64,000 bases of DNA from Tribonema minus (Eukaryota > Sar > Xanthophyceae > Tribonematales > Tribonemataceae). Position 1 is the first letter of the stretch. Each line of letters starts with the position of its first letter. A program made the translations under genes and the position numbers. Location of the stretch: NCBI GenBank assembly GCA_017506865.1, contig JAFCMP010000081.1, positions 62,001 through 126,000 of the forward strand, written 5' to 3'. Shown in pieces: positions 2 to 64,000 of the stretch. The notes beneath the pieces are model-generated. The model made no database searches. It was not told the origin of the DNA and was given only the letters and a program-made list of their open reading frames with translations.

Positions 2-640
2 GAGTGCACGGTTCACGCCGCACGACTCATCGTGCGAGCCAAGCTTCAAGTGGTGTTATATGAGAATGTGCCCGGAGTGCTAGTGTCACGCGCGTTTGCA
101 CGCGCAGCACGCATTCTAAAGGCAGCTGGCTATATGCTGTACATTGCCAAGCTTAAGGCTTCTGAGTTTGAAGTACCTTGCAAGAGGCAGAGAGTGTACA
201 TTCTCATAGTGCCAGCTGGGGTGGCCTCAAGAAAGGCACTCCAGCGGTTCGGTGCATTTATAAATGACAAGCGTTCACACAGCAGACAGACATCTGTTCG
301 TTCTCGTTTGCGCTGCCCCGAACGCACGTTCTTTTTGCAACCGCGCAGTGCTCAGCATCCTGGTGTGTTGAATGCTGATGGTCTGTTGCCCAGTCCAGTG
401 CGCAGATTGCCTGGAAAACCTGCTGCAAGCTATGTTGCGCATGTTAAGGATGCTGGCCCGGTGTCATCAGCTCGCGTATTATCGCTTGCTGAGATGGCAG
501 TACTCATGACGTATCATCATGATCTACCGAGTCGTGCGTCACAGAGTGATGTACAGAGATACATTGCAGACTTGTTCATCCCAGAGATGGCGTTTCATTT
601 GTTCGTGGCCATAGAAGCCTCAGGCTTGTGTACTTTGCCC
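2..640 (+). other. C5 cytosine DNA methyltransferase-like domain inside the retroelement ORF1
   Basis: Seen: a Y-E-N-V-P-G block (nt 59-76) fits methyltransferase motif VI (ENV). About 35 residues later, P-C-K-R-Q-R-V-Y-I fits motif VIII (PQxRxR, with Cys for Gln). A later R-V-L-S-L-A-E-M block and Y-I-A-D-L-F-I-P-E-M-A fit motifs IX and X (RxLTxxE and QIGxxVPxxxA). Spacing and order match the C-terminal half of the family. Motif IV, which carries the catalytic Pro-Cys, would lie before base 1, so activity cannot be judged. Motif X lacks the usual Gly-Asn, so the domain may be divergent or inactive. Known: retrotransposon-encoded cytosine methyltransferases have been described in dinoflagellates and in the alga Klebsormidium. 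Inferred: this element captured a host or viral methyltransferase. Confidence 0.72.
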
Positions 641-2644
641 GAACAACAGATGCGTTTGCCGCGCAAATCAGAGTTGATGTTGCGGCATTCAGTAGACTGC
701 CCACCACCATCTTGGTTGGCAGAGAGTAGTGGTTCAATGGTGCGTACCGCAGCGACGGCGCACTCAATGTCCACTTCCAGTGCGCATTGCTCAGTGGCAA
801 TGTTGCAGGGCATTAATGCTACACCGCATAATGCAGAGTACCCCACGGTACCAGTAGTCCCAATGCATAGCGCATGGGAGGAGTCAGAAGTAGACTTAGC
901 CGTGACTCAACCTGGCATGGCTGACATCATGGAAGTTGATGACTCAGGTTCTGACTCTGAATACGACTCAAAGTCATGTATGAGCGTGTGCAGTAGTCCA
1001 GAGGACATGAACATTGACGCAGAAGTCAGTGCTCAACCAGTTGCGGCCGTAGCGGCGCGCAAAAAGCTTGGCGGTGGTACAGACCCACGCCTTGCTCCAG
1101 GTGAGCTCAGAGCAGCGCTCAGGCGCGCTGGTTTGGACTCGCAGTCACTAGGCATATTAGACCATATGCGCAATGTCCAGAAAGACATCACAACTACTAC
1201 ACAAGAAAGTGTAGCAGAAACTGTAAAGCGTCTCGCAGATGAGATTGCGATACAGAGAGAGCAGGTTCAATTACCTCCAGTAGACCTTGCAGTAGGGTCA
1301 ACCGAACCTAGTTCAGTGGCACACTCTCAGTTAGAGGGGCCAGTGGAGTACATACGGCCAGTCGCTGGCGTTGTACCCCCAGGGCAAATGTTTGTCTCAG
1401 CGTCACTGCGTGTTCAGAGTAACTCGCAAACGCCGAAAGAGTTATATGTGCGTGCAATGGTGGATTGCGGTGCTACCGTAACCATCATGGGCAAGCGCAT
1501 AGCAGACAAACTGCCAGGCAGCTACATATGCTCACCTCAAAAAGGTGACTACACTCAGATCCTTTTGGCAGATGGCAAGACGTCGCTGCAGATCAGTGGT
1601 GTAGTTAATGCATGGCTGAGATTCAAAAATAAAATGTTTTTACACAAGTTCTATGTGGTGAACACACCCATGGATGTGTTACTTGGTACAGACTTCTTTG
1701 CCCCACACGGCTCAGTAATCTCGTATCATGGTGGTAGCCCAGCCTTTTTTCCAGGGGGACTAAAAGGCGTAGCTATACGCCCAGTGCATGAGAAAGCGCG
1801 CACAGACAATGCGAGCACACATGCAGCTAGTTTAGCCAGTTGCAAAGGCAATGGCAGTGCTGAGACTGCAGAAGCGCCAGTAGCGCCCAAGCAGTGCTCA
1901 GTGAGAATGGCATACAATACTGTGCTGGCACCATCGTCAGAAACGATCGTGGAGCTTACGCTATTTCCTAAACCGAAGCGCGTACAGCCCTATGAGGCTT
2001 TGCTCATACCAGACCAAACAGTTACCACGGAAATAATGAGATGCAAAGGTGTTAAAGCTAACATTACTGCGCTCACCGTAAATGCCAGTGGCACAGTATA
2101 CGCAACATTGAGCAATACTTCAATGTATCCAGTATACGTACGCCGCAACACCTATTGGGGTAAAGTAACCCCATTAAAAGCAGATGACCTGTTAGAAGTG
2201 CAAGAAGCAACTCAACAGGCACTGCAGACCAAACTGCTAGAAATAGCAGTCAGAAAGCATTCAGAAAATGCTCAGTTGGTGGCAGAAATAGCTGCGGCCA
2301 TTGGTAAAACTACCATAGAGGTTGCACAAGAAGTGCAAAGATTAACAGAGCTAAGTCAAAAGCACAATGCTCAGTCAGAACACTGCACAGATGCAGAGTT
2401 ACAAGAAATCCTTGAAAAAGATGGTAAACTAGCACCTCATTTACAAGGAAGGGGGAGAGATGGGGTACCCTTAAAACAAAAAGCATTAGACATGCTCAAA
2501 AAGCACAGAAATGTCTTTGCAAAAGATCCCAAAAATCCCAGAGTCACACTCAACACTTTAAGATTGATGTTGACACTCAGACGGCAGAGCCGGTGGCCGA
2601 CAAAGCGCGGCACTGGGCATTTAAAGAAGCCGAGTACATCATGA
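2..2644 (+). CDS. Retroelement ORF1 (partial): C5-methyltransferase-derived domain, spacer, aspartic protease
   Basis: The frame is open from base 2 and runs to a stop at 2642-2644; the true start lies upstream. Numbering residues from the GTG at 32, residues 1-195 resemble the C-terminal half of a C5 cytosine methyltransferase (ENV at 11-13, a PxxRxR-type motif at 49-54, a motif IX/X-like block at 148-190). Residues 200-450 are low-complexity and Ser/Glu/Asp-rich, with no CCHC zinc knuckle. Residues about 455-560 form a retropepsin-like protease: the active-site triad reads D478-C-G-A-T, where most families have DSGA or DTGA, and the second conserved block is LLGTDFF (550-556). The end (HRNVFAKD near residue 830) corresponds to the segment just before RT in gypsy polyproteins. 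The RT continues in the -1 register, so a -1 shift or separate initiation is needed. Confidence 0.85.
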   Translation, partial: ECTVHAARLIVRAKLQVVLYENVPGVLVSRAFARAARILKAAGYMLYIAKLKASEFEVPCKRQRVYILIVPAGVASRKALQRFGAFINDKRSHSRQTSVRSRLRCPERTFFLQPRSAQHPGVLNADGLLPSPVRRLPGKPAASYVAHVKDAGPVSSARVLSLAEMAVLMTYHHDLPSRASQSDVQRYIADLFIPEMAFHLFVAIEASGLCTLPEQQMRLPRKSELMLRHSVDCPPPSWLAESSGSMVRTAATAHSMSTSSAHCSVAMLQGINATPHNAEYPTVPVVPMHSAWEESEVDLAVTQPGMADIMEVDDSGSDSEYDSKSCMSVCSSPEDMNIDAEVSAQPVAAVAARKKLGGGTDPRLAPGELRAALRRAGLDSQSLGILDHMRNVQKDITTTTQESVAETVKRLADEIAIQREQVQLPPVDLAVGSTEPSSVAHSQLEGPVEYIRPVAGVVPPGQMFVSASLRVQSNSQTPKELYVRAMVDCGATVTIMGKRIADKLPGSYICSPQKGDYTQILLADGKTSLQISGVVNAWLRFKNKMFLHKFYVVNTPMDVLLGTDFFAPHGSVISYHGGSPAFFPGGLKGVAIRPVHEKARTDNASTHAASLASCKGNGSAETAEAPVAPKQCSVRMAYNTVLAPSSETIVELTLFPKPKRVQPYEALLIPDQTVTTEIMRCKGVKANITALTVNASGTVYATLSNTSMYPVYVRRNTYWGKVTPLKADDLLEVQEATQQALQTKLLEIAVRKHSENAQLVAEIAAAIGKTTIEVAQEVQRLTELSQKHNAQSEHCTDAELQEILEKDGKLAPHLQGRGRDGVPLKQKALDMLKKHRNVFAKDPKNPRVTLNTLRLMLTLRRQSRWPTKRGTGHLKKPSTS

Positions 2645-5600
2645 AACAGATTCAGATGATGGCAAAGCGCCAACAAATTGAACCCTCAGACAGTGCTTGG
2701 GCAAGCAACCCAGTGCTAGTTGTTCAAGGCGATAAGATTCGCTTCTGCATTGACTTCAGAAAGTTAAATGCAGTTACGAAGAGAGACAGTCATGGCTTAG
2801 GCAACATGGATGACATGATGCGAGCTGTGCAAGGTGCGAGGATTCTGTCCTCATTAGATCTGGCAGCGGGATATCACCAAATTCCGTTGGCAGAAGGAGC
2901 CAAAGCTAAGACAGCATTCAGGGCCCCAGACGGCTCGCTGTGGCACTACAAGGTATCACCTTTTGGCTTAGTGAATTTGCCAGCGCAATTCACCAGACTG
3001 ATGCACAACGTGTTAGGAGATGCTTTGGGCTCTCACGCGTTAGTGTACATCGACGACGTGCTGGTATACGGTACGGACGTTGAAGACCACATTGATCAGC
3101 TAGACGATGTGTTAGGCCGCATAGGTGCGGCAGGCATGAGCGTGTCTCGTCCCAAGTGTCAGCTTTTTCAAGCTGAAGTCAAGTTTCTAGGCCATATAGT
3201 TGGCGCAGCAGGAACCAGACCCGACCCTGACAAGGTCAAGGCCATGTTTGACATGAGTCCACCCATAAAGAATGGGCGGGCCGACAAACAGTTAGTGCAA
3301 GTGGGTATGGGAGTATTTAACTATTACAGGAGGTATGTACCCAATTTCGGGGCAATATCAGAGCCTATAGTAGCCCTAACCAAGAACAAGTCAGACCTAG
3401 TCTGGGGGCCCGCGCAGCAGCGCGCCTTCGACAGGCTGAAGAGGGTCATGTGCGATAGTCGCATAGTCATGCACCCAGATTTCAGTTTGCCATTTGTATT
3501 GTACACCGACGCCTCTAAAACGGCAACAGCAGGTGTGCTTACGCAATTCAGACCCGTAACAGAGGTCGAGAAGGCAACTGCAGGGCAGCCATACGCCAGT
3601 ACTGGCAGGCGCCGTATAGCTGAAGGTGAAGAAGTCAGAGAAGTGGTCGTTGGCTACTTCAGCAAACTGAACTCAGAACCTGATGCTAAGTTAGGAGCAA
3701 CAGCAGTTGAGTGTCTAGCAGTAGTGCTGGCACTTAACCACTTCAGGCCCTACATTTGGGGTAATCCTGTTACAGTGGTCACAGACGCTGCAGCGCTCAG
3801 ATGGCTTTTGACGTTGCAAGACTACAATGGCAAGCTACTTAGATGGGCTATGCGCATACAAGAGTATGACGTTACCATTCAGCACAGACCTGGCAGAAGA
3901 AATGCCAATGCTGATGCCCCATCCAGACTGCCTCAGCAGGCAGAGTTAGACGCTGAACGCTCTACAGAGCCAGCAGATGAACAGTGGCCAGATGCAGTCC
4001 CCAGCATGGATGCACCACCTTCGGGCGTGCGCTTTGCTGATGACGCCACTAGAACGCACAAAGTAGCCGACGTGAACAGCTGCCGTGGTTACACAGCGGA
4101 TGCACGTTACGGTCCCGCGTTCAAGTTCAACGAGGCCGTCGCCGTGTCAGGCGCGGTGGCCGCTAGACTAGCCGCCCTGTCAGCTGTGGAGTTAACACAG
4201 TTATTAGACAGACGGTTAGATGACTCCACAGTGGAGGAGGCTGAGTTTGATGAGATTGAGATCAACACAGCATATGCCGAGCCAGTGCAAAAGTACTCTG
4301 ACTCGTGGGAGCAATCCCAGGCGCAGCGACTCTTAAGACAGATCGCATGCGACAGGCGGCGCAGCATAGGTTCAAAGAGAGCCAAATGCAGCGTCACTAC
4401 AGCTCAGTCAGCTGAGAATACGAGCGCACTTGAAGAAGGTGAACTTTTAGAAGTTGACGCTCCAGCTGAGACTGAAGAAGCAGACGAACCACCGGGTGAC
4501 GATGGTGAGGCTGTCTTAGGCAAACGTAAAAAAACGTTGCCCAGACCAGAAGTAATACAATTGTTGAAGCAAGTTGCCGAAGGGGGCTCACAAGCCACAC
4601 CGGTGATGCTCAGCAAAGTCGCTTTTCTTGAAATTCAGAAAGCGGATGGCTTCTGTCAGGCGGTGAGCAAGATGCTTACCGTGGGAGATATTCCCGAGGG
4701 CGCAGAGCTAGTTGCTCACGTCTTAGCGCAACAAGAGCAGTATACCATTGAAGAAGATGGTCTCTTGGTGCACAGTGCAACAAGCCACCCCAAGAGAGGT
4801 ATGGTGTTGTTGCAGTGGGTAGTGCCAGTTGCACTCAGAACCCTAGTCATGCGCTTAGGGCATGATGATGCTAGTGCTATGCATTGTGGCATAGGTGCTA
4901 CGCACACACGTATTTTCGAGAGATATTACTGGCCTGGTATGGGCGCAGACATACGAACGTACGTGCAGAGTTGTATGACGTGCCTAGAACGCAAGCGCGC
5001 CAGCTCCACTCAATATAAGCAGTGGTTGGCTGAGCCAGTGCGCATGTGGCAACGTCTCAACATTGATACCATAGAGCCTGGTATCCAGTCCGCAGCAGGG
5101 CATAAATATGTTCTGACTATTGTGGAGACGAGGTCCGGTTTTGTATGGCTAGCCGCTATGCATGGCCAGGGTACTAAAGATGTAACCCCGCACCTCATGA
5201 CAGTGTTCCTAGAGGTTGGAGCGTTAGTGGAGGAACTATGCTCAGACAAGGGCAAAGTCTTCCTTGGCAATGTGGTCAGTGACCTTTGCAGAGCGTTTAA
5301 AGTTAAACGCATAGAGACCAGTGCATACCACCCACAGACCAATGGTGTGGCAGAACATGCAAATGGTCGTGCTAAGAAGGCACTAGCATCTTGGGTCAGC
5401 GCTCAGCAGACAAACTGGCACAAAGGCTTAGAGCTCGTACAGTTTGTGTTGAGGACAACTCCCCGAGATGAGACAGGATTGACACCCTTTTTCTGTGTGT
5501 ACGGTCGCGAAGCTTCTCTGCCACATGATGCATTTATGCACGAAGATGGCAGTAGAAAGCTAGACCTACACGAGGAAATTGAGCGCAAGTTAGACATGCT

Positions 5601-6819
5601 TGAGCTCGCAGACAAGGTTGTGTCAAAGGCGCTGCAGTTGCGCGCCCAGAAGATCACTAAGCGCAACGAAGCAGTTAAGCGTGCAGTGAAGTTCGCGGTC
5701 GGTGACTATGTCATGATCAGACTACCTAAGCAGAGAGACAGATCAGCTGCTCTAGACGCTAGGTATGTGGGGCCTTGGCAGATCGAGGCTCGCACAGGCG
5801 AATCAGGTCTCTCCTTCATATGCAGAATGATGGGCAGACGAGTCAGACACACCACAGCTCATGTAGAGAACATGAAACCATTTCACATGAGGCCTAATGC
5901 CATGTTGGAACCTGGTGTGCATGCCACGCTTAGCCCACATCAAGTGGAAGAGCTAGCAGATGGCGAGAAACTGTACAGAGTTCTAGACCGCCAAGTGAGC
6001 CCTAATGGTTCATGGCAGTACAAGTGGCAGTCCAAAGATGGCAAGTCGCATGCATGGGTGTCGGAAGACGACATGCTGCAAGAAGTCATGCCATGGACAT
6101 TGGATGCTTTTCACGCGCTCTATGAGCTGCGTAACGAAGGAAAGCTACCCGCATATGCCATCAGACCCACACCCAAAGAAGATGCAAGTATGCGCCGAGA
6201 GAGCGCACTGCAGCTTTATCCCATCGGCACAGCGCTGGCGAGGGAACACAGGGTTAAATTGGGAGGCCCACTTACTTACGTATGGGGGGCAGTAAAGAAC
6301 TTTGTATCACCATACTGGAGGATCAGATATGAAGATGGCGAGTGGGAACAGATGACCCGTACGCAGGTCAAGTCTGCCATACAGTTGGCAGAGGCAGTGC
6401 GTGACAAGGCCCGGAGACTGCAAGCGCGAAGTGCGCCGGACATTGCCAAGAGTGCAGGTCCCAGCTCCCAGGCTACGCAAAGTCTGCCACAATCCCCAAG
6501 TCTTTCTGAGGCAAGCCCAATTCAAGATTCTGCTCAGCCGCAGATCATATTGGTGAGACTACCCAGATTGCCATCTGATTTCGGATCAAGCTTTGAGGGT
6601 GAGGTGATCTGGTATCACTTCCCAACAGGCTGGAGCCGCGGCACCTTAGGCGAGTTTTACCCCGCAAGGTCGCAGTTCACGTTCGACGTGCTGTTTGACG
6701 GTGAGAAGGCCGTCAGGCGTATGCGTTTACGTCCGAGTGACTACCGCACGCCTAAAGACAGTGCGCATTCCTCATGGAACGTGCTCGCCGCTCGCCCTGT
6801 ACCCTTAGAGGAGAGATAG
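2593..6819 (+). CDS. pol: Retroelement pol: RT, RNase H, integrase, chromodomain-like and barrel-like tails
   Basis: The first start-type codon is at 2593, but the frame is open from 2428 and the conserved pre-RT segment (HFKID at 2554-2568) is already in this register. It therefore overlaps ORF1 by up to 217 nt in the -1 frame. Residues count from 2593. RT spans about 20-290 with catalytic YIDD at 152-155 and FGLVNLP before it. RNase H has D306, E373, D398 and D441. The integrase HHCC finger ends at C794/C797; its core residues are D825, D885 and E921, with exactly 35 residues between the last two. A GPY/F-like YVGPW motif is at 1058-1062 and a chromodomain-like segment at about 1118-1162. 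Two further beta-rich segments (about 1225-1275 and 1330-1395) look like small Tudor- or chromo-type barrels. All catalytic residues are present and there is no internal stop, so the enzyme set could be active. Confidence 0.95.
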   Translation: MADKARHWAFKEAEYIMKQIQMMAKRQQIEPSDSAWASNPVLVVQGDKIRFCIDFRKLNAVTKRDSHGLGNMDDMMRAVQGARILSSLDLAAGYHQIPLAEGAKAKTAFRAPDGSLWHYKVSPFGLVNLPAQFTRLMHNVLGDALGSHALVYIDDVLVYGTDVEDHIDQLDDVLGRIGAAGMSVSRPKCQLFQAEVKFLGHIVGAAGTRPDPDKVKAMFDMSPPIKNGRADKQLVQVGMGVFNYYRRYVPNFGAISEPIVALTKNKSDLVWGPAQQRAFDRLKRVMCDSRIVMHPDFSLPFVLYTDASKTATAGVLTQFRPVTEVEKATAGQPYASTGRRRIAEGEEVREVVVGYFSKLNSEPDAKLGATAVECLAVVLALNHFRPYIWGNPVTVVTDAAALRWLLTLQDYNGKLLRWAMRIQEYDVTIQHRPGRRNANADAPSRLPQQAELDAERSTEPADEQWPDAVPSMDAPPSGVRFADDATRTHKVADVNSCRGYTADARYGPAFKFNEAVAVSGAVAARLAALSAVELTQLLDRRLDDSTVEEAEFDEIEINTAYAEPVQKYSDSWEQSQAQRLLRQIACDRRRSIGSKRAKCSVTTAQSAENTSALEEGELLEVDAPAETEEADEPPGDDGEAVLGKRKKTLPRPEVIQLLKQVAEGGSQATPVMLSKVAFLEIQKADGFCQAVSKMLTVGDIPEGAELVAHVLAQQEQYTIEEDGLLVHSATSHPKRGMVLLQWVVPVALRTLVMRLGHDDASAMHCGIGATHTRIFERYYWPGMGADIRTYVQSCMTCLERKRASSTQYKQWLAEPVRMWQRLNIDTIEPGIQSAAGHKYVLTIVETRSGFVWLAAMHGQGTKDVTPHLMTVFLEVGALVEELCSDKGKVFLGNVVSDLCRAFKVKRIETSAYHPQTNGVAEHANGRAKKALASWVSAQQTNWHKGLELVQFVLRTTPRDETGLTPFFCVYGREASLPHDAFMHEDGSRKLDLHEEIERKLDMLELADKVVSKALQLRAQKITKRNEAVKRAVKFAVGDYVMIRLPKQRDRSAALDARYVGPWQIEARTGESGLSFICRMMGRRVRHTTAHVENMKPFHMRPNAMLEPGVHATLSPHQVEELADGEKLYRVLDRQVSPNGSWQYKWQSKDGKSHAWVSEDDMLQEVMPWTLDAFHALYELRNEGKLPAYAIRPTPKEDASMRRESALQLYPIGTALAREHRVKLGGPLTYVWGAVKNFVSPYWRIRYEDGEWEQMTRTQVKSAIQLAEAVRDKARRLQARSAPDIAKSAGPSSQATQSLPQSPSLSEASPIQDSAQPQIILVRLPRLPSDFGSSFEGEVIWYHFPTGWSRGTLGEFYPARSQFTFDVLFDGEKAVRRMRLRPSDYRTPKDSAHSSWNVLAARPVPLEER

Positions 6820-7070: not shown

Positions 7071-7400
7071 TGATACGGCTTGGGGGTATATTAGCATAAG
7101 CAGTTACACCTCATAGCCCTTACAGGTCATCCTTCGACCTCTATGGTCACCCTAGACCTTTGCATGTGAGTAGATGTCTGTTCTAGAGGTCAGACTAGAC
7201 CTGGTTCAGTAACATTGGTCACATGCCAAAGGGCACATCAGTTTGCTGTGCACAACATCAGTCTAAGAGTTACGAGGTGTTGTGGAGCCTGTGCAAGACA
7301 GCAGCTGTAGCAGACTCCTTGAAGCCCCAAGCCTTCCTACGTGACGCGTGCAACAATAAGACCTATCGGTAAGCGCTCCCATTTCATTCCATTCCACTTC
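7071..7400 (+). repeat. Candidate 3' LTR (start supported, end not placed)
   Basis: The sequence after the PPT starts with TG, as LTRs do. It contains an AATAAG-like polyadenylation context near 7350. The matching CA end and target-site duplication cannot be identified because the 5' LTR is outside the window, so the right boundary is a placeholder. Confidence 0.4.
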
Positions 7401-7537
7401 AGCATGTTCTCTGAGCTGTCTGCCTGTGATTGCTCTTCCAGCTTGCATGTTTGCATTTATGACAGCATCACATGGTAGCCTGTTTCAACATCATGGCGTG
7501 CGACTTGCCACTGCCCGTCTAATCGTACGCAAAGAGG

Positions 7538-7750: not shown

Positions 7751-8153
7751 ACCCTGGCCCTGCATACATTGCAGGCAGGGCAAAGCATGCTGCACTGTGG
7801 CGACCACAACCGCAGAATGCAATAGGGTGAGGCGAACACCTTGTCCTGCATAAGTTAATGGTCTGAGTAGCAGCCATGTCGGGATGGCTGACTGAGGACA
7901 GACCAACGATAGCGAAATCAGTTGAAGACACCTGTGCCTGCGCAGCGTGCGGGCAGAAGCAAGCTGCACAACAGCCACGAAAGGAAGCATTAATGAACGC
8001 AGGCAAATTATGGCTTGCGAGACGAACGGGAATGTAGGAACGTTTCCAAACAGCAAGGCAACGCTCAGTGCTGTCACAATGCCCCGAACAGACACTCGCG
8101 GTTCTTGCATGCGTTTCAGTATACCAGTCAGCCGCCGTCATGCACGTGCTCAC

Positions 8154-29621: not shown

Positions 29622-32600
29622 TCGCGCCTGTGGGGGACCCTGGGGCGGCGGGCGGCGCGGGGGGCAGCAGCGGGGAGACGGCAGCGGCAGATGCGGCGGC
29701 GGCAGTGGCATCTGGCGACGTCCGTCCGCACGCAGTAGTCGCGGGCGGCGAGAGCATGTGGCGTCGCAAGGACGGCAGCATCGCTGTGCCAGCGGCGGCA
29801 GCGGCAGCGCAGTTCAAGGCGCGTGCGGCACCGGCGCCACGCGAGGTGACGCCGACGCCGAGCAGTCCAAGTGCTGCCGCTGCTGCTGCTGCTGCTGCTG
29901 CTGGTGGTGATGCTGGCGATGACGAGTGCAGCATCCAGTCAGTCTCGGAGGAGGAGGCCAGCAGCAGCATCCACGGCTCGGCGCGCGCTGCCAGCAGGAA
30001 CCGCGGCAGCGATGGCGACGGCGGGCGCCGCCGTCACGACCGCAGCAACAGCAGCGAACGCGGCGGTGGCAGCAGCGACGATGACGGCAGCGGCGGCAGC
30101 AGCAGCGGCGACGGCAGAGGCAGCGACTGCCAGGAGGGGCAGTGGACGGGCGCCTTCGAGTGGCGGAAGTTCGATATTTTCGCCTGCGGGCTGCAGCAGA
30201 TCCAGTTCCTGCTCCACCGCGCGGGGTTCAGCTGGGCAGCGGACAAGCCGTTCATCCGCCCGGGGGTGCGGGATGCCAAGTCGCGCTACGCGCGCGCTGG
30301 GTACAGGCTCGATGAGGATTACTTCCTTGGCGAGGACGCGCTCATGGCGTGGCTGCGCGAGGGCGACAGGTGGCAGTCCGGCACGTGGCGCGAGGAGGTG
30401 ACGCTCCTCAACGGTCATGACGACCAAGCGCTGAGCACTGTTGCGAGCGCCGCGCCGCCGGTGCCGCGGAGCCTGGCAGCGGCGGCGGCGGTAGCGGCGG
30501 CGGCGGCAGCGGAGGCGGCGGAGGCGCGCAACGCCGACGAGGCGGACGTACAGGTTAGAAACGGAATGTTCAGGGGCCTGCATTTTGTGTTCTGTGTTTT
30601 GGCACCACGAGCATTCCATTCCTGTTTCGTTTTCCATGTTGAACGGAACACAGAAAGCCGAAATCGTGTTCGTTCCGTTTTGGTGGTGTTTTGAGCCTTT
30701 GCAGCCGTGCCATTGGCCACCACAACATGCAAAGTGCTGCAGGAGTAGTGTCAATCACTATGGTGCTGCAAGAGCTCATTGGTCGGCAGAGAAACATCAT
30801 GATGTTGCATCGAGATGGCATGTTATGATATTGAGGCTCTTTGCACAAACACCGTGACACATGATGTGTGGAGCAGCATCCCTAACATTGCAGTGCAAAG
30901 TACACATGTCAGAAAGGCCAGAATAACATGCACTTGACGGAAAAGTTTTTTAGCCCACGCTATTGTGGGCTATAGCCCACAATAGGCCCATTTTTTGCAG
31001 GAATACATAGTATGTTCTTAAGCCATATCTTGCTTTTAAAAGGTCCGTTGCTGGCTGCCTGTCAGCCAGCGCTGGCTTGCCTGCACCAAGAGCTGTCATT
31101 TGCACATGTTTTCACAGTTGTTGAGGGTCATGGTTACAGGTGAGCACTGCCACCTTAGGTGGCAGCACGGCTAAACCTATCCCTAGTTGCGACAGCAGGG
31201 TTAGGGCTTGCAGTTAGGGTTAGCTTAGGGTTAGGGAATGGTTTGCATGAACTATAGCTCAGACATCATGTGAGCATCAGTGCGATCCCCGGAGTACATG
31301 TCAGCATGTCTATGCGCCCTCCTGGCTGATGTGGTGCACTAAATCAACTCGAGGGGGCGCAAAACCGATACTTCGAAGTACATAAAATACGCAAAAGGAC
31401 CTTTAATAGGCACACGGGCAGCACACAATGAAATCCATAATAAAGCTAAAAATACATAACATCGCAGGGTCTATGTAGCTTAAACGGTTCAACACACACG
31501 GTTTTCCCTGAAATTATTCTGTTTCTTTTTTTCAATACTGCTGAAGTATATACATTTCGGTTCCAGAATGTGATAATGTGAACATGTCATGTGAGTATGC
31601 TAGTGGACCTTCAGAGGTGTCCGTGTCCTACGTCAACGCGGAAATTTGATCCGTTTTTTTCGTTTCGGTTCTGTTCCCTTTCAAATCTCCAGGCGGATGG
31701 CTGGGTGGGGAAGTACGCACCGCCGCCCGAGGAGAAAGCGCCGTCGGCGCACAAGCCGCGCCGCAGCGCCGCCAAGCGGAAGGCGGCGGCAGGCGCTGGC
31801 AGTGGTGGCACGGCGGCAGCGGCAGCGGCGATCGGGAAGAAGCGGAAGTACAGGCGGGCCACGAGCCCTGCGGCGGGGGCAGCGGCGCTGGCTGCGGTGC
31901 GCAAGCGCGAGACCCCTGCGCAGAGCGCTGATGCTGGCAGCAGCGCTGACAGCGACGCAGCGTTGCCGGCGGCCGCGGCAGCAGCGGGCCCGCCGGAGCG
32001 CTTTGCGGCGCTGTGGCAAGACCTCAAGCCGCACGGCTGGTTCACCAAGTATGCCTCCGCCAGCAAGCTCGGCAACAGCATATATTACTGCCGCCCGGGG
32101 CTGCCAAACTGGCAGCAGAAGGGGGTGATGTTCCCCGACGAACACCACACGCTCAACATCCACTACTTCGACTCTAAGGAGCAGGTCCTGGTGTTCGCGC
32201 GCGAGAACTGGGACAGCGGCGCGTGGCAGCACCCCGTGGGCACAGTGCTCGGCGACTGTGCTGTGGAGGCGCCGGTGCCAGCCAAACGCGGCAAGCGTCA
32301 GAACCTCGGCGTTCGCCACCTCAGCACCGTGTTCGCAGACCCCACACTGCCGAACCGCCCCCGGACTGCTGCCAGTGACGCCAAGGCGGCGAAGGCGACG
32401 GCTGGTGCCAAGCAGAAGCGCGCCGCAGCCGCCGCTGGCGCAGGCGCACAAGCGAGCGCCGCTGACGCACCAGCGCCTCGCCGCCGCAGCCCGTGCGAGC
32501 TGCAGCTGCTGCCGGCGGTGCCGCCTACTGCGGCGGCGGCCGCGCGTGACCGCAGCGGCAAGCGCCCAGCCACTGCCGCCGCGCCGGCGGCGGCAGCGGC

Positions 32601-34980
32601 AGCAGCGGCGGAGCCACGCGCCATCGAGGGCTTCCCGAGCAGTGGCGATGCTGAGCGCGGCGCTGCGGTCGGCGGCGCCTCCAGCAGCAGCAGCGCAGCG
32701 GCGTCATCGGCTGCAGTGGCGCGCTCACCTCCCGCTGCCGCTGCCGCCTCGCGGTCCGTGACGTCCGCGCAGCAGCTGGGGGCGGGGGCATTGCCCCCCA
32801 GCGGCGGCGAAGCGCATGACGCAGCGGCGGGGCCGGTGAGCGCTGCTGCGCCATCCGACGCGCAGGTGGACGGCGCAAACCGCGATGACCTCGATACGGC
32901 AGGCGATGCCATGGACGTGGACCCCGGCTACGGCAGCGGCGGCGGCGGCGATGACGCAGTGCGCAGCAGCAGCAGCGATGCCTCTGACGGCGCCGCGAAG
33001 ATGGCGGACGTTGTGGACGCGGTGGCATCGGACGGCGCAAGCGTGATGGAGCCTGAGGCGGAGGCTCACCCTCACGACGACATTGCGCGTGTCATGGCGC
33101 AGGCCGGCATCACCACGGCCGACCATGCCACCGACGCCGCCGTCCTGACCGCGCTGACGGAGTGCGGGTGGCGGTGGATCAGGAGCAGCCACGCCCGCCT
33201 CTTCTGCGCACCCGGCGTCGCCGCTGCCGCAAGGACGCTGGGCGTCAATGCCTTTCTGCAGAAGCGTGATGTGGTGGCGTGCGCGCGCGCGCTGCTGCGC
33301 GGCGAGGCGCCGCCGCCGCTGCCGCAGGCGCAGGAGCTGGAGAAGGAGCTCAGGCGGCGCAGCAGCAGCGGTGACGGCGGCAGCGCGGAGCCAGGCGTGC
33401 CGCAGGATGCGCAGCAGGTGCGGAAGCGTGCCGCGCCGCAGAGCGCGGTCAAGGGCAGCGGCAAGAGGCCCGCGCTGAAGCCGACGCTATTGGGGCGCGA
33501 TGAGAATGCGCCGCCAGACATCAAGCAGCATGCAGCGGCGGCGACTGTGGCGGTGGCGCCGGTGGCGGCGGCAGCAGCGGCATTGCCGCCGCCTGAGGAC
33601 GCCAGCCCCGCGGCAGTGCTGCGACGGCTGAGCGCTGCTGTGGTGGCGCTCAACTACTACAACTGCCCCGAGGCGGTCCCGCAGCGCGCGCAGCATCTGG
33701 CGGTCCTGACGCGCTACGTGACGGACGCCCTTGCTGCGCGCTGCGGCACCGCCGTCTACGTATGCGGCGCACCGGGGACAGGCAAGACGTGCACGCTGCA
33801 GCGGCTGGAGCATGAGGTGCGCACGTGGCTCGCCGGAGGCAGCGGCAGCAGCGCCGCTGCCAGCGCCGCAGCAGCAGCAGCGCGGCCCACGTTCATCAAC
33901 GTGGACGCCGTATTCCAGACGTCGCCGATGCAGGTGTTCCAGCGCGTACTGGATAAGATCCCAAAGACAGTGCAGCACAGCCTCCGAGGAAAGCGCAGTG
34001 GCGGCGGCGATGCGCGTGCGCAGCTGGAGGCCATGCTTGCGCCCCCGGACGATGGCGGCGCCAGCAGCAGCAGCGCCGGTGGCACGACGAAGACGATGCT
34101 GGTGCTGACGATCGACGAGGTCAACTACCTGCGAGGCCGCGGCGATCCTGTGCTGCAGGCGCTGTTTGGCTGGGCATGCGCGCCCAACTCTCGCCTCATT
34201 CTCATCGGCGTCGCCAACGGCATCAACTTCACCAAGAAAGCGGACCTCGGCGTTCCTAGCGACGCTGTGAAGACCCTGGTGTTCCCCACATACACGGCTG
34301 CGCAGCTCAAGGAGATAGTGGCGGTGCGCGCCGGCAGCGTGTTCCAGCCGCGCGCCGCTGCGGTATGCGTCAAAAGGGTGGCGGCGCGCAGCGGCGATGC
34401 GCGCGAAATGCTGCAGCTGGCGCAGAGCGCTGCCCTTGCTGTCCGAAAAAGAGTTCAGGCAGCTCTCGCCAGCGGCCGCAGCCTTGATGACGACGGTGGC
34501 AGCAGCAGCGGTGTCGGCACCCAAGTCAGCAGCAACGTTGCCGCGACGGTGGGCATGGTCACCACTCGTGACATTTCGGCAGCAGACGCCGCCTTCAATG
34601 GGGCTAGCAACCGCAGCACAATCGGGGAGCTCCCACCCGCGCATAAGCTCCTGCTCTGCGTCATTGCGGTACTGCGTGCTGAGTGCTGCGGCAAGCCGCC
34701 CGAGGTGATGGCGATCAAGGAGCGCTTTGCCTACGCCATGGATGACGCCGGCTTCGGCACGTACCAGCAGTACTTTAACTCCGCGCTCCAGACTCTCGTC
34801 GACTATGGTCACGTGGATGTAAAGGGCGGGGGTACCAACCGCTTCCACTGGCATCAGAAACCCCGCCTCGTCAAGTTGAATGTCAGCGTCGACGACCTCC
34901 GTGCGGTGCTCACGGCGGGCGTCTACAAAAAGGTGCTGCGGCATGCAGGCGGCGGCGGCGGCGGCGGCGCGTGGCGCTGA
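29339..34980 (+). CDS. Orc1/Cdc6-family AAA+ ATPase (replication licensing), two exons
   Basis: Exon 1 is 29339-30553 and exon 2 is 31693-34980; the junction is phase 0 with a GT donor and a pyrimidine-rich TCTCCAG acceptor, giving about 1500 residues. The AAA+ core is in exon 2: Walker A GAPGTGKT (33766-33789), Walker B TIDEV (about 34106-34120), sensor 1 near GVANGIN, sensor 2 GDAREML (about 34393) and a C-terminal winged helix (CVIAVL through NRFHWHQK). Orc1 and Cdc6 proteins load the MCM helicase at origins in the nucleus; the Walker A and flanking text resemble Cdc6 slightly more, and no BAH domain is seen. The N-terminal 1000 residues hold a 14-Gln run, Ala/Ser/Gly linkers and at least two, probably three or four, Trp-rich modules (see findings). 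The start is uncertain: a TTCGTGCAG acceptor just before the ATG pair means an upstream exon may exist. Confidence 0.88.
29578..29621 (+). repeat. CAG microsatellite (poly-Gln)
   Basis: An uninterrupted run of about 14 CAG codons inside exon 1 of the Orc1/Cdc6-like gene, encoding poly-Gln. A shorter GCT-rich run (poly-Ala) lies near 29875-29900. Confidence 0.95.
30960..30985. repeat. Perfect 26-bp palindrome
   Basis: CTATTGTGGGCT, then AT, then AGCCCACAATAG: the two halves are exact reverse complements. Further TAGCCCAC (30951) and GGCCCA (30986) words extend it imperfectly. It lies within an intron. Confidence 0.95.
31199..31236 (+). repeat. Telomere-like tract inside an intron
   Basis: GGTTAGGG, CAGTTAGGGTTAG and CTTAGGGTTAGGG within 40 bp. 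Confidence 0.85.
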
Positions 34981-38282: not shown

Positions 38283-40557
38283 CTGGTGTGGGAGGGGAAG
38301 TGATATATGCGCACGGGAAAATTTCAGGCAGAGTGTGGTGTAGATATACACCAATGGTGGGCTGCGGATGCGCCTGGCCAGCTAGATGTCTGTGGGCATA
38401 ATCTGGGGGTGCCCAATCATGTAGTCACGGATGCGACAGCGCTCAGGTGGTTACTCACACTACTGTACAGGACCGCAACGGCAAGTTGCTGCATTGGTCG
38501 ATGCGAGCCATGGAGTGTGACGTCACCGTGCAGCACAGATCTGGCAAGCACAACAGCCACCCGGACAGGCTTTCAGAACTGTCAACACAAGCAGAGCTTG
38601 ACGTGCCGAAGCAGTACTGGCATGCAGACGAGGAATGGTCAGATTCAGTGCCATGGTGCAACTTGCTGACGATCAGCATGTGGCTGCAAATTGCGAGTGC
38701 AGCGGTGCTCAGCGAGGCCAGACTGCATGTGCAGCAGCGTTCAGCAAGGCGCGGTGAGAGTGGGCACATTCAACGGCCACATTGCACGGCTATGTCATAG
38801 CGGCGTCAAGCAGGTTTCCGCACCGCTTCAACGACGGCAGCCGTAATGGCGGGGAGGGGTGGCAGGGCGCTGATTCAGCACGAGTAATGCGCACTTCAAA
38901 AAGCTCAAAAAATACGATGACGTGACGGCCCCGGACTTTTTGGGGGGCAACATCACATTGTTTGCATTGCCAGAGTCGTTTACCTGGCATGCTGATGCTC
39001 AGGTACAGCTGGCGCAGGACGGAGGCGCGTTGGCGCACGATGAGGCAGAGCGTGTTGGCAGAGGTCTACATAGCGCATTCACGCGCAGCCAAGGCAGCAC
39101 AGGCGCACAAGTGCAGTAAGCACAGGTGCAGTGAGCGCTGACACAACATGGCGGCGGCCAGGAAACGTATGCTAACCCATGCGGAGAGCGCTAACGCAGC
39201 AGGCGGCGCAGCTGCAAAACGCAAACGCGTGAGCTCATTGAGCACTGACTCAACAGCTGGCGCAGCAGAATCCGGTGTGCGCATGTCTGAGCCAGAGGCA
39301 TGCACTGCGATGCCTGATGGGTGTGCGGCGGGGCTGTCAGGCGACAGGCGAGATAGCAGGCGCGAGATGACAGCTCCTAGGCCAGATACGGACGCAGCGC
39401 ACCTCGTGGAGGCTGCGGCGGGCAGTGATGCCGCATGTACGCCAGCGATGCTCAGCAGGGAGGTGTTCTTGGAGATGCAAAAGTGATGCATTCTGCCAGG
39501 CAGTCACGAGGGCACTGGATTTGAGTGAGCTGCCCCGTGACAAGGAGTTCACTATGCAGTGAATGATGTGTAAGGAGCTATACACCACTGTGGGGGATGG
39601 CCTACTTCTATATTGCACGGTCAGCAAGCTTAAGCGCGCGGCAAGATGCTGCTACAGAACGTGACACCATCAGTGCTCAGTCCATTGGTGCTCACACTTG
39701 GTCATGATGACTCGAGCGCGGCGCACGGCGGTGTGTTTGCAATGTTGATGAGGATTGCTGAACGTTTCTACTGTCCAGGTCTGAGCGCTGAGGACAGGCA
39801 GCACGTCATCAGCTGCGTGGCGTGCCAGAAGCGCAAGTCTTCAACTTCAAGTTAGTAACATGCAGCGTTGCGCCCACACACGTCTACCAGCTCACACACG
39901 GGGACTTCCTTCAAGCATCCATCACGTTGTTGGTCGGCCACATTTACATATTGGTCGTACTCGACGGCGCGTGCAGCGGGTACGATGGCCATACGCCACA
40001 AAGAACACGGAGGCAACACGGAGGTGCCGGACACACTATACAGGCTGGTCCTAGTGTTGGCAGCAATCCAGAGCAGCTGGTGTTACAACAAGGCAAGGAG
40101 TTTGTGACAGCAGTCATTGCCAACGTGTGTCGACTTTTCATGGCCAAGAAGATAGAGACATCTGCGTACCATCCGCAAGCAACCGACGTAGCAGAGCGGC
40201 GACGATCACCTGAGCGAATGGGTAAGCGACGTTGTCATGCCAGAGATCGCAAGGCCTTTGACATAAGACGCATTGCATGCTCTGTATGAGCTGCGCCCAG
40301 AGAATGAGCAATTTGCATTTCCTCGGCGCCCGGAGGCTAGGGCATCTGCTCAGTTGGAGCGTGATGCAGTGCCAGCAATGTTGCAACGCGGCACAAAGGT
40401 AGTGTGGAAGCACTGCGGAACAAGCCGCATGATGACCCGCCCTTATATATCTGGTGACATTACGATGCCATGGTACGTACTTCACAACATGCGATCACAT
40501 ATGAATTGGCAAGTTGGCATTCATCAGATTAGGTGCACCGCTGGCTCAGGCAGCTGA
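38283..40557 (+). pseudogene. Decayed gypsy pol, relative of the element at 1-7.4 kb, internally deleted
   Basis: Pieces in changing frames match the intact pol in order. RNase H: VVTDATALRWLLTL (38.43 kb) and KLLHWSMRAMECDVTVQHRS (38.47 kb). Linker: TPAMLSREVFLEMQK (39.44 kb). Integrase finger: LGHDDSSAAHGG to ISCVACQKRK (39.69-39.83 kb). Integrase core end: KKIETSAYHPQ (40.15 kb), then VAE. It then jumps directly to the segment after the chromodomain (LSEWVS, ALHALYELRPEN, 40.21-40.31 kb), so about 190 residues around the GPY/F and chromodomain region are missing. Stops and frameshifts are frequent. RT and everything upstream are absent. It is clearly related to, but diverged from, the intact element. 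Confidence 0.85.
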
Positions 40558-59566: not shown

Positions 59567-62500
59567 CTATGCCTTGAGCGCCGCGCCGTACCCCGCCTGG
59601 AACGCCTTCTTCAGGCCCTTGGACTCGCCGCCGCCAACGCCGCCGGGGTGTTGCGACACGGCGGCGGCGGCGCTGCTGCGGTCGACGCGCGCGCCGATGT
59701 CGTCCTGGATCTCCTCAATGGTCTTGTCGCGCGTCTCGATGAGGCCCCACGCGACGCCCGCAAACGTCACGGCGAGCACGCCCGTGAAGGGCAGCCACGA
59801 GTACGCGCCGAGCGCCGTCGCGAGCATCGGGTAGAACATGCCCACCATGAAGTTGGAGATCCAGTTGAGGACCGTCGCCACCGCGCCTGAGGGGTCACAG
59901 GTTAGGGTTGGAGTTTGGGTCAGCGTTGGAGGGGGGTAGAGGGAGGTAATGGCGTGATGATACTTGTGTCATGTTGCCAGACGGCTCTAATGATGGAGGT
60001 CTCAGAAACAAGTCAAACTGTGAGACTGTGCAACGCAGTTTGATATGAAAAACGAATCAAAAGATCGTTGAGCTCTAGGTGACAAGGGATGGTTAGCCGC
60101 GAGTGCCTTCCACCAATAACCGTGGTCGCCGCTGCTGCAGTACTTGAAATAGATCAACTGACTTTTGCCGTGCTGCGGCAGCGCGACCAGCAAAAACATA
60201 ATATGCTGCAGGCATCTAAGAGCACTGCTACTTGCCAGCGTAACAGTAGAGTTGAGGTTTTATGCCATACAATGCACAATCCGACAGAGCGCCGCCGCCA
60301 GCGTAGCGCACGCGGCAACGCCACTCACTTGCAGAGCTGCGGAGCTTGGCCTGGAACAGCAGCCCCGTGAGCAGCCACGCGACGGGCCCGAGGCCAATCT
60401 CGAAGAACGACACGAACGCCATGATGGCGACGACCGACACGGCATTCCACGCGGCGGGCGCGGCGGCGCCGAAGACGAGCGCGAGCGTGACGACGACGCT
60501 GCTGACGAGCATGCCGCCGACGCTCCACAGCAGCAGCGACTTGTGGCCAAACGCGTCCATGAGGTAGATGGCGGCGACGGTCGCGAGGACGTTGACGGCG
60601 CCGACGAGGATCGTGCCCATGCGCGGGTCCTCGAGGCCTATCGCGTCGAAGAACGACGTCGAGTAGTAGAAGACGGCGTTGATGCCGCTGAGCTGCTGCG
60701 CGAGGTGGAGGCCGCAGCCGACCAGCAGCCCGTAGAGGACGCGCGGGTTGTCGAGGTTGGAGAGGACGCCGCCCGCGCGCGAGGGCGCCTCGAAGCGCGA
60801 CGCGTCGATGATGGCGTTGATCTCGTCGTCCACGTCGTCCACCGCGCGCAGTTGCTGCGCGCGCGGTGGGCGCACAATGAGGGGGGGTTGAGGATGTCAT
60901 GAAGCCGCCATGGAGTTGCACACGACGTGGTGGTGGGGGTGGGGGGGGCAACTCTGACAGCATTCGTTTTGATAGTAATTGATTCAGCTTGATCACAACA
61001 ACAAAGTGTTACATATGGACGCGTCTACGATGGCGTTGAGCGAGTTGCCAATGTCATTCACAGCATGGGACTGCATTTGCTGCTGGAGCATATGCTATGC
61101 ATTTATGATTATGACAGCCATGATGACAATGGCCTTGATGCATACATGGCCATATGCAACTGCTGTGAGGACAAAGCAAGACACGGCGCATGGCGTGACT
61201 GCGGGCACGATCTCTTTACCCAGGACCATGAATGTAGACAGCTACTGCAGTATAAGCTTTTGCAATATACTTCTGCTTACTTTTTCAGCATGCCAATGAT
61301 GTGTCAGCTGCCTGAGTCGGCAGCGCAGTGTGCATAGAGACTTGCAAGGACCAGCGGCGCTTCAGCACGTGCAAGTGCGATGGCAGACATACCGTTGTGA
61401 AGGTTAAGTTATAACATCACAACCTCATGCAGATGGCAAAGGTCTGGGCACCCAGGTCACCCACTGCCACCTCAACCCTAACTCTCACCCTCAATGACAG
61501 CATTGGCTAACGTGTGGCTAAGACTGGCAGGGGGCCGTCAAGGGACCAGAAACTGCTATTCAATGCTGACATACGCGTGCATTGAGCACATCACTTATGC
61601 AACATGCTCAAATCATCTGCTTTACACCTCACAGCCTCGCCAGTACTGCCTGCAGAGACTTCACTGACTTACTACGTTGATTAGCACTCCTCGACATTCA
61701 CGAATGCAATAACTTCACAGGTGCACATCATCAAATGGTGGAGGCACCGACCGTGAGCGCTGCCGCAGCCTCTGCACGCTGCCCGCGCATGAGCAGCAGC
61801 CTGGGCGACTCCAGCAGCCACGGCGACAGCGCCAGCTGTATGATGGCGGGGACGCACGTGAACGCAAACAGGTACCGCCAACCGTCCTCAGTCGCCAGGG
61901 ATAGGGACATGACGTTGGCCACCAAGCTGCGGCCATGCGGTGAGGGGCGGTGATGAGTGACTTGTGAGTGACTTGTGATTCCAGTGCGCTGGTGAGCGCT
62001 CGTGCATGGAAGTGGTAGAATGAGCCCTTGGGGTTCGCATACGCAGTTGACGAGCACGACATTGAAGCTTACAAAAGTGAAGTTGAAGGGCCTGCTTTTA
62101 GCTGCAGTGCACAGCAAAAGAAACCGCTGCTGCCAAGCATGAGCGACCTGAGCCGGCTCAACATTCAGCGGACGGGGGCACGCAGCATATTACCGCTGAT
62201 GCACTTCACGCTGACAGCGGGGTTCGCACACTTGGCGCAGGCGCTCGTGCAATGGCTGCCGCAGCAGTCACTTGGCACGGCTGCATTTGTTAGGTGCACG
62301 GTTCCATCATTACAAAGGCATGTATGTGTATGTGACTACGCGCATACATGCCTTGTGTGTACTTGCACTCACATGCAAAAGTGCCAGGTTCACTGGCTCA
62401 GCGCGCGCAGCATCGTCAAAGTCAACATAAGCACCTATGTATGTACGTTACGTGTCTACATACCGTACGTGTGCAACATACATACCGCAAGTATGCATAA

Positions 62501-62990
62501 ATACTCACATGCCGAAGACGAGGTGGAACTGGCTGAGCGCGCCCAGTATGCCGCGCAGCATGGGCGGCGCGATCTCGCCCACGTAGATGGGCACAAACAC
62601 CGTGCTTGCGCCCGCGGCGGTGCCCACGAGCAGGCGCGCAAAGATGAGCCATGCGACGCTCGGCGCAAAGAACATGATCACGCCCGACGCCAAGAACACG
62701 TAGCTCGCGAGCATCAGCGCTCCACGGCGCCCCAGGGCATTGCTCAGGTGGCCGCCCGCGAAGGCGCCCATGAGGCCCCCGACGCAGAAGATGGACACTA
62801 CGACGCTCCACTCCAGCGGCGTGTGGCCGGGGAAGACGACGGCCTCGCAGCCGTTGATGACGCCCGAGTTGAAGCCAAACTGCAGCGTGGACTGCATGGC
62901 GAGCAGCGAGGCGACCGCGAGGCTCGGCGTGAGCTTGCCCGTGGCGATCTCGTGCTCCAGCTCCTCGGGCTCCACCTCCTCAATGAGCAC
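59567..62990 (-). CDS. MFS sugar (GLUT/SP-type) transporter, four exons recovered
   Basis: Minus-strand exons: A 62990-62509, B 61926-61752, C 60854-60329, D 59886-59567 with the stop at 59569-59567. Phases 2, 0 and 1 join perfectly to 1503 nt (500 residues). The protein is a 12-helix major facilitator of the plasma or an organelle membrane. Signatures seen: FGFNSGVINGCE in helix 1, NALGRRG after helix 2, FVPIYVGEIAP in helix 4, LLESPRLLL before the central loop, QQLSGINAVFYYSTS in helix 7, MDAFGHKSLLL after helix 8, GLGPVAWLLTG in helix 10 and GLIETRDKTIEEIQ after helix 12. These are classic sugar-porter motifs, with Thr-Arg-Asp where the PETKG-type box has Thr-Lys-Gly. Exon A starts in phase 0 after a CAG acceptor, so a short 5' exon with the true ATG probably lies upstream. 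The B donor (ACG then GTCGGT) is weak but gives the expected LTQLRAVDDVDDE join. Substrate is not predictable. Confidence 0.9.
59900..59935 (+). repeat. Telomere-like words in transporter intron
   Basis: GGTTAGGGTTGGAGTTTGGG, located 14 bp upstream (on the gene's strand) of the exon D acceptor. Confidence 0.55.
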
Positions 62991-64000
62991 CTGCGCATAG
63001 CAGGAGTGTTTCAAAGAATGTGTGATGCAATGAGTACCTGCAATCGGCAGTTGTTGCCATGAGCGCCTGCACAGAGCAGGTGTTTGAAGGAATGAGTGCA
63101 CCACGTGTGCGCTGAGTACCTGCAGTCAGCAGTTGTATTGAGGAACGTGTGACGCGTGTGCATGATGTGTGTGTGTGTGTCACACTTCCTGAGGGTGTTG
63201 GAGGGCAGGTGAGGTGAGCACCCGCAGCAGCGCTCAGCACATCATCCATCACAGCAATATGTTGAACAACACGTGCACAAAATGTTGAAGTTTCTCTCAA
63301 GCTCAACTACCTGCGCTCTTGCGCACACAATGAGGTTCACTGAAATCCACCGCCTCAAGCACGCCTGCGCGCCGCTTTCACCAGCAACCTGTCCCCTTAA
63401 GCATGCCTGAACTGCCTGTGTGCCGCTTTCACCAGAAGTTGTCCCCTCGAGCATGCCTGCGCGCCGCTTAGTCCTGAACCTGCTTTTGTCCCCAACCCCG
63501 ACTGCGCACCGCCTAACCCTAACCGTTACTTCTAACCCTAACCCTAGATATGCAGCCATGCGCCTGGACATGCGCATTTTCATCGCCACTGCTTGTCGCT
63601 GTCGAAAGTGCTTCAAGCCCTCCCGTCCTCACACTCAGCAGCTATACTACACGTCTACAGCTCAAAACGTAAGCGACCACCATGCGTAATCAAGCGACAT
63701 GAGTGCACTTGAAAATGATTCAGAATTGGTTCAGGAGGTGCCATGCCGTTGCTGGCTGTTCAGCACACATGAGCTCGCGGGTGCACACTTTGGATGCCAA
63801 AGCTAAGCAGCACTAGTGGCTGTGCCACAAGAACGCAGTCCTTGCAAACGTGTGCTGCCAGCGAGGCGTGCAAAGCGATGCTACGGTCGCAATTAGCTTG
63901 CGCACCACCAGAGCATCATGCACGAGAGCAGTGTAAACACATTGATACCAGTGAATGGCACGCAGCCAATGTGTGCGCTGTTGCGAGTTTTGCAGTGACG
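62991..64000. other. Upstream region of the transporter
   Basis: No secure first exon is visible. There is a GT-rich microsatellite near 63167-63182, a doubled segment near 63000-63120 (GTGTTTCAAAGAATGTGTG versus GTGTTTGAAGGAATGAGTG, both followed by a TACCTGCA(A/G)TC-like word), and telomere-like CCCTAA words at 63512-63546. The last 450 bp hold nothing I can name. Confidence 0.4.
63512..63546. repeat. Telomere-like tract (CCCTAA family)
   Basis: CCTAACCCTAACCGTTAC, then CTAACCCTAACCCTAGA. Confidence 0.85.

Follow-up and report, generated by a model that had tools for sequence, protein, structure and literature searches.

Retroelements that carry a DNA methyltransferase (MTase) are already known as a kind. 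According to the available text of PMC5890265, DNMTs under purifying selection are carried by Symbiodinium retroelements of the DIRS and LINE types and by a Klebsormidium nitens Gypsy element, and the SymbioDIRS enzymes methylate CpG in yeast, the other enzymes tested there being inactive. A 2025 paper, in its accessible part, terms the streptophyte and dinoflagellate cases Copia and DIRS, at odds with that description (PMC12344493). DAM- and DCM-encoding Ty3/Gypsy and DIRS elements have been recorded in stramenopiles, red and green algae and charophytes, with both enzyme types pooled (PMC6338049, accessible sections). Finally, Ectocarpus harbors Gypsy elements with a chromodomain or a Tudor domain, and a homologue of the Tudor type is present in Tribonema minus (PMC12477816, available excerpts).

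Here we analysed a window of 64,000 nucleotides (C81:62001-126000, the whole stretch of DNA under study), which a retrotransposon of ~11.8 kb enters from the left. The element resembles KnitGypsy-Dnmt3 in that a Gypsy-type polyprotein holds a C5-MTase with its key residues kept and under purifying selection. However, the accessible account of KnitGypsy-Dnmt3 describes a DNMT3-class MTase in the Pol ORF and DIRS-like repeats (PMC5890265), whereas the window element has ordinary direct long terminal repeats (LTRs), carries the MTase before the protease and belongs to another host group. With SymbioDIRS-Dnmt3 and SymbioLINE-Dnmt it shares the character of a many-copy, MTase-bearing retroelement in an alga, yet those are DIRS and LINE elements in the available text of the same paper, and the present one is Ty3/Gypsy with an integrase and direct LTRs. 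Like the elements of Ectocarpus it is Ty3/Gypsy; its own chromatin-reader signals are weak, and the Tudor match lies under its cut-off; the available portion of PMC12477816 makes no mention of a cytosine MTase in a Gypsy element. The accessible sections of PMC6338049 give no architecture like MTase before protease. Among the matches listed from the open-licence PMC literature we found neither this architecture nor this host group described, which says little by itself. The differences from the known systems thus lie in the position of the MTase, its multiplicity, the host group and the apparently non-DNMT3 type of the enzyme.

Architecture of the window element

The sequence-only reading of the window had proposed a Gypsy retrotransposon carrying a C5-MTase-like domain, and the profile matches bear this out, PF00145 being followed by protease, reverse transcriptase (RT), RNase H and integrase (Table 1). 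The complete polyprotein order is gag region, MTase, protease, RT, RNase H, integrase and a tail of ~330 residues; the gag region is placed by position, no gag family being found there by Pfam. The frame that starts at base 2 stays open to window position 2644. Its first 455 codons match PF00145 above the cut-off of 22 bits (E=8.3e-08, 32.5 bits), and its first 213 codons match NCBIfam dcm (5.1e-08, 32.9 bits, under the model cut-off of 100.65). This single frame holds ENVPG (motif VI, window 62-76), VPCKRQRVYIL (motif VIII, 173-205), a IX-like motif (470-514), an X-like motif (563-598) and the protease active site DCGA (1463-1492), in a motif numbering (I, IV, VI, VIII, IX and X) that we take to be that of the MTase family. 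All four MTase motifs had been assigned to the protease frame from the letters alone. Motifs VI and VIII are covered by the Pfam alignment, which spans positions 5-159 of the 324-position PF00145 profile, corresponding to motifs I-VIII, whereas IX and X lie outside the aligned part and are recognised from the family alignment only.

The catalytic PC motif, predicted to lie beyond the left edge, is found directly left of it on the same contig. There the frame continues (L009) and supplies motif I (ASICCGAPGGA) and motif IV (SPPCTDFS, with the catalytic PPC), with no unrelated domain in their place, and the window domain joined to this flank matches PF00145 with E=1.5e-16 (61.2 bits, cut-off 22). 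The MTase domain starts at C81:61711, 290 bp left of the window edge, and was analysed as 310 codons. In comparisons with PDB sequences, on which the Ty3 affinity of the RT rests, the best matches are the Ty3 RT (4ol8, 1.7e-60) and the Ty3 polyprotein (5.6e-60), the next other match following at 3.4e-31. We regard it as close to certain that the element is a Ty3/Gypsy retrotransposon with a C5-MTase fused into its polyprotein.

Table 1 Features of the window element, in window positions unless a contig is named
Feature	Position	Strand	Evidence or remark
5' LTR	C81:57717-58134, left of the window		partner of the 3' LTR
C5-MTase domain, C-terminal part	2..640	+	Pfam match plus motif positions
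Aspartyl protease	1448..1699	+	gag-asp_proteas, E=4.4e-05, just under the Pfam cut-off
Frame change between protease and RT	2593..2644	+	breaks the polyprotein of the window copy
Reverse transcriptase	2731..3201	+	RVT_1, E=4.4e-26
RNase H	3478..3867	+	RT_RNaseH, E=1.9e-22
Integrase zinc-binding domain	4822..4998	+	E=1.4e-17
Integrase core	5050..5334	+	rve, E=3.5e-05, below its Pfam cut-off
Weak chromodomain-like stretch	5968..6081 (approximate limits)	+	4-copy profile against PDB, best E 0.0046
Weak Tudor-like stretch	6277..6372	+	PF21743, window E 0.0038, 17.4 bits against a cut-off of 27.2
3' LTR	7071..7487 (to 7488 by BLAST)	+	TG...CA ends put the end at 7487
Target-site duplication ACAT	7488..7491	.	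also directly before the 5' LTR

The window element is young and has moved recently. Its LTR pair shows 1 mismatch in 418 aligned bp by BLAST, and two sibling pairs are identical over 413 bp. A 4-bp target duplication was found by script in three of seven elements, including that of the window, and inspection by eye added two more, with LTR ends TG...TAA and the duplications TTAC and CGAG; none was seen in the remaining two, in one of which the repeat ends had been misplaced. The polyprotein of the window copy is frame-broken. Copies of subfamily B have a single open frame of up to 3376 aa, and the three near-full matches of subfamily A, to which the window copy belongs and among which an intact copy was not found, have open frames 1869, 2096 and 1274 aa long, the second of these matches containing one TAG.

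Behind the integrase, a conserved tail (window 5830-6816) with weak chromodomain-like and Tudor-like signals is shared by A, B and two C copies. The tail profile has eight PDB matches at E <=5, seven to entries of chromodomain proteins and one to an unnamed protein, and PF21743 matches all four tails at E <=1 (best 4.7e-05). AlphaFold modelling of the window copy's tail by itself gave an unusable prediction (mean pLDDT 44). It is possible, judging from these profile signals, that the element combines an MTase as writer with a chromatin reader.

Methyltransferase-bearing families in the genome

Counting copies had been suggested as a check on the domain, and the 158-Mb genome (554 contigs) proved to hold many in several families. 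The 455-residue window piece has at least 95 matches, a lower bound from 93 scored of 340 candidates; at least 66 of them span the MTase part, 63 of these 66 without a stop. Types A and B (>=73% identity) account for 36 matches that cover residue <=5 to >=440; three of these are type A, and 33 are stop-free. Type C contributes 30 matches of 46-48% identity that reach residue >=256 and so take in the MTase part, none with a stop. Seventeen of the 95 matches lie in frames of >=3000 aa without a stop in the match, and 29 are partial or decayed. PF00145 itself has at least 123 matches in the genome (123 scored of 378 candidates), again from several families. We refer to A, B, C and W2 jointly as W; the further families D, E, F, G and H were viewed as single representatives.

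The MTases of 12 aligned, deeply diverged family sequences all match PF00145, and all 12 have the catalytic Cys, ENV, both Arg residues of motif VIII and the motif I glycines. There are also departures. In subfamilies A and B, motif I contains one extra residue and motif X is without its usual Asn; one B copy has Arg for the first Gly of motif I; PPC is replaced by TSSC in family D2 and by GSNC in family G.

Further MTase frames are solo or come from divergent families. Three solo frames of 367-390 aa (L045, L046 and L047; C223 twice, C181) score higher against PF00145 than any other match in the genome (113-129 bits) and could be host enzymes or old viral genes, and an MTase frame on C523 looks DNMT2-like by eye. 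Divergent MTases of families H, F and G (L032, L033 and L044) lie in open frames of ~550-1200 aa. For the solo frames and for families F, G and H, the sequence viewed spans ~1.2-1.8 kb around each MTase.

Lineages, enzyme positions and relatives

The position of the MTase differs between families. It precedes the protease in A and B by Pfam, and in C (two loci) and D a protease, recognised by similarity to that of the window (E 5e-17 to 1e-25), also lies between MTase and RT; W2 is broken, with only a protease fragment visible. In family E at C66, by contrast, a protease (PF13975, 0.00035, under cut-off) stands before the MTase, and none was found between MTase and RT. At C84, the second E locus, the short upstream frame has no Pfam protease, and a protease-like stretch there is degenerate by eye. 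The metagenome protein P0008 has the protease-then-MTase order by eye. RTs are 54-94% identical within W plus D and 82% within E, as opposed to 31-36% between these groups (one W sequence being partial), and Ty3 RT is the best PDB match for both W and E RTs. Because of this low RT identity between groups and the differing MTase position, we distinguish two deep Ty3/Gypsy lineages in one genome that carry the MTase at different places in the polyprotein.

A maximum-likelihood tree of 26 MTases (159 columns, eukaryotic DNMT reference classes left out) groups W, D and G (support 97) and, separately, E, H and the metagenome proteins P0002 and P0008 (99), and it divides 14 element-type MTases from 12 bacterial, solo and DNMT2-like ones (89). 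Four constrained trees, each forcing one element group onto non-element sequences, are retained by the AU test (p 0.13-0.29), and bp-RELL and c-ELW exclude one of the four. Since the AU set keeps such alternatives, one capture with exchange and several captures are indistinguishable in the tree. An independent MTase capture is nevertheless likely.

The 12-sequence MTase profile matches 53 PDB sequences at E <=0.01, including DNMT2, HaeIII, HhaI and DNMT1 types, and no DNMT3-named chain is among the 53. The three best are DNMT2 chains, with HaeIII, HhaI and DNMT1 closely behind; the window domain alone has a prophage-type MTase as its best match (1.3e-04). From these PDB matches, which include no positive control, and with no DNMT3 in the tree, the enzyme is apparently not DNMT3-like. 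The metagenome protein P0002, related to family E and distinct from the window domain, gave an AlphaFold model with a confident core only (mean pLDDT 56); the 50 listed fold matches of this model are all C5 MTases, none DNMT3-named.

A profile search for relatives returned 36 proteins. Three JGI metagenome proteins (P0001, P0004 and P0007) share 54-62% identity with the window domain over 44-76% of its length, and in P0004 the similarity continues into the linker behind the MTase; the W type is therefore present outside this assembly. P0002, P0003, P0005, P0006 and P0008 resemble family E (53-77% identity to P0002), as does P0010 by eye. Long-protein homology searches with the MTase regions of two polyproteins gave nothing at E <=0.001 among the best 7999-8000 word-sharing candidates, and scans of viral contigs with one W, one E and one solo MTase (L045) gave no relative.

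Selection and substitution patterns

The MTase is under purifying selection, weaker than that on RT, integrase and protease. Our own Nei-Gojobori script, applied mainly to A versus B, gave a dN/dS of 0.137 for the MTase (310 codons; bootstrap 0.082-0.208), compared with 0.048 for RT-RNase H, 0.041 for the integrase and 0.035 for the protease; the linker (0.190) and the gag region (0.275) stand higher. MTase values were 0.194 between the two C types, 0.220 in E and 0.227 in D, with dS >1 throughout, and the RT of family E gave 0.137. Comparisons of A/B with C and those with W2 were left out (dS 1.7 to infinity; W2 RT not located by the script).

C/T differences were counted among three A and five B copies, with L012, a sixth B copy covering a shorter stretch, excluded. 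Per C, they amount to 0.064 (A) and 0.077 (B) at CpG versus 0.012-0.015 (A) and 0.017-0.028 (B) at other CpN, which makes them 2.7-5 times commoner at CpG. Per C plus T, the figures are 0.022 (A) and 0.031 (B) versus 0.006-0.009 and 0.010-0.020, and the CpG excess shrinks to 1.6-3.7 times, in a count of MTase-bearing copies only that includes no MTase-free control. Such an excess fits CpG methylation of the copies, which may be the work of the host or of the element.

Two parts of the window element have CpG observed/expected ratios of 0.71 and 0.81, and the remainder of the window has 0.93 and 0.84; 2-kb host blocks range from 0.60 to 1.10, and parts of family E from 0.91 to 1.24. Element values overlap those of the host blocks, and CpG depletion was rejected as proof of self-methylation. 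Two LTRs, one A and one B (window 7071-7487 and L017:390-802), are lower, at 0.33 and 0.47.

Possible roles of the methyltransferase

Taken as a whole, the best explanation of the locus, which we think somewhat more probable than its competitors combined, is a young Ty3/Gypsy element that carries an MTase between gag region and protease and methylates itself. It builds on features observed directly in the copies, namely that MTase and polyprotein are fused, that catalytic and SAM-site motifs are conserved, that the copies are many and have moved recently, and that the MTase is under purifying selection. On the mechanism itself, in which a Gag-Pol-carried MTase would mark new copies, we are evenly divided. 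The MTase would be produced within Gag-Pol and packaged with it, and the element's protease would release it. The enzyme could then methylate cytosines, probably mainly at CpG, of the new cDNA or of the freshly integrated copy, and the marked copy would enter the chromosome resembling quiet host DNA, from which it might benefit.

Other uses of the enzyme are conceivable. It may act on RNA, either the genomic RNA of the element or the primer tRNA in the particle, much as DNMT2 does on tRNA. The rank of the DNMT2 chains in the profile search points this way, and RNA methylation was raised for the LINE case in the accessible part of PMC5890265; however, HaeIII, HhaI and DNMT1 follow closely with the same profile and the window domain alone is nearest to a prophage-type MTase, so that we hold an RNA target to be unlikely. 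A loss or fading of catalysis, with the domain kept as a nucleic-acid-binding or structural module, would account for the extra residue in motif I, the missing Asn of motif X in A and B, the Arg in motif I of one B copy, the altered motif IV of two families and a dN/dS above that of RT. It is nonetheless improbable, given that the catalytic Cys, ENV and the motif VIII Arg residues are invariant in all 12 deeply diverged sequences.

We give still less credence to an accessory defence role, in which the MTase would methylate invading viral or competing transposon DNA and thereby harm rivals or protect the host. Such a role has been put forward for retrotransposon-encoded methylases (PMC6338049, accessible sections), and the many MTase-bearing families of this genome would suit it, but Pfam shows no companion nuclease or other defence part in the polyproteins, and the joining of the MTase to Gag-Pol suggests a function within the cycle of the element itself. 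An artefact, whether a chimeric assembly or contaminating bacterial DNA next to a retrotransposon, had nothing in its favor and has a negligible probability, as the same join of MTase and element recurs in dozens of copies on different contigs and partial metagenome relatives exist at 54-62% identity, one of them sharing the linker that follows the MTase. Chance, chimera and contamination were accordingly rejected on multiplicity.

A bolder reading, which we consider doubtful, covers both lineages. Two lineages would have taken up non-DNMT3 MTases independently and at different positions, and one of them would pair the writer with chromodomain- and Tudor-like readers behind the integrase, the marks being written and read to place and shelter copies.

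Cytosine methylation is usually a weapon of the host against transposons. What stands out most here is the presence, in a single genome, of several MTase-bearing Gypsy families that belong to two deep lineages and place the enzyme at two positions. Apparently repeated uptake of MTases by transposons, combined with identical or near-identical LTRs, offers a natural system in which to ask what a transposon gains from methylating DNA, and MTase-bearing families of different age are found side by side in one genome.

Host and other window features

The genome contains two broken RuBisCO remnants, presumably of form ID by their motifs, and 92 exon-level matches to antenna proteins; the nearest relatives of one of these are fucoxanthin chlorophyll a/c proteins (2.9e-30). 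The host is an alga with a red-lineage plastid, probably a stramenopile or a haptophyte, Tribonema or some other ochrophyte being no more than a guess.

Elsewhere in the window, a short frame at 39822-40289 looks by eye like a decayed integrase fragment and has no Pfam match. A frame of 1129 aa (31591-34980) shows a weak AAA ATPase match (6.4e-06) and is ORC1/CDC6-like by eye only. Two sugar transporter exons (PF00083, 2.3e-41 and 6.5e-26) lie on the minus strand at 60231-60875 and 62508-63104.
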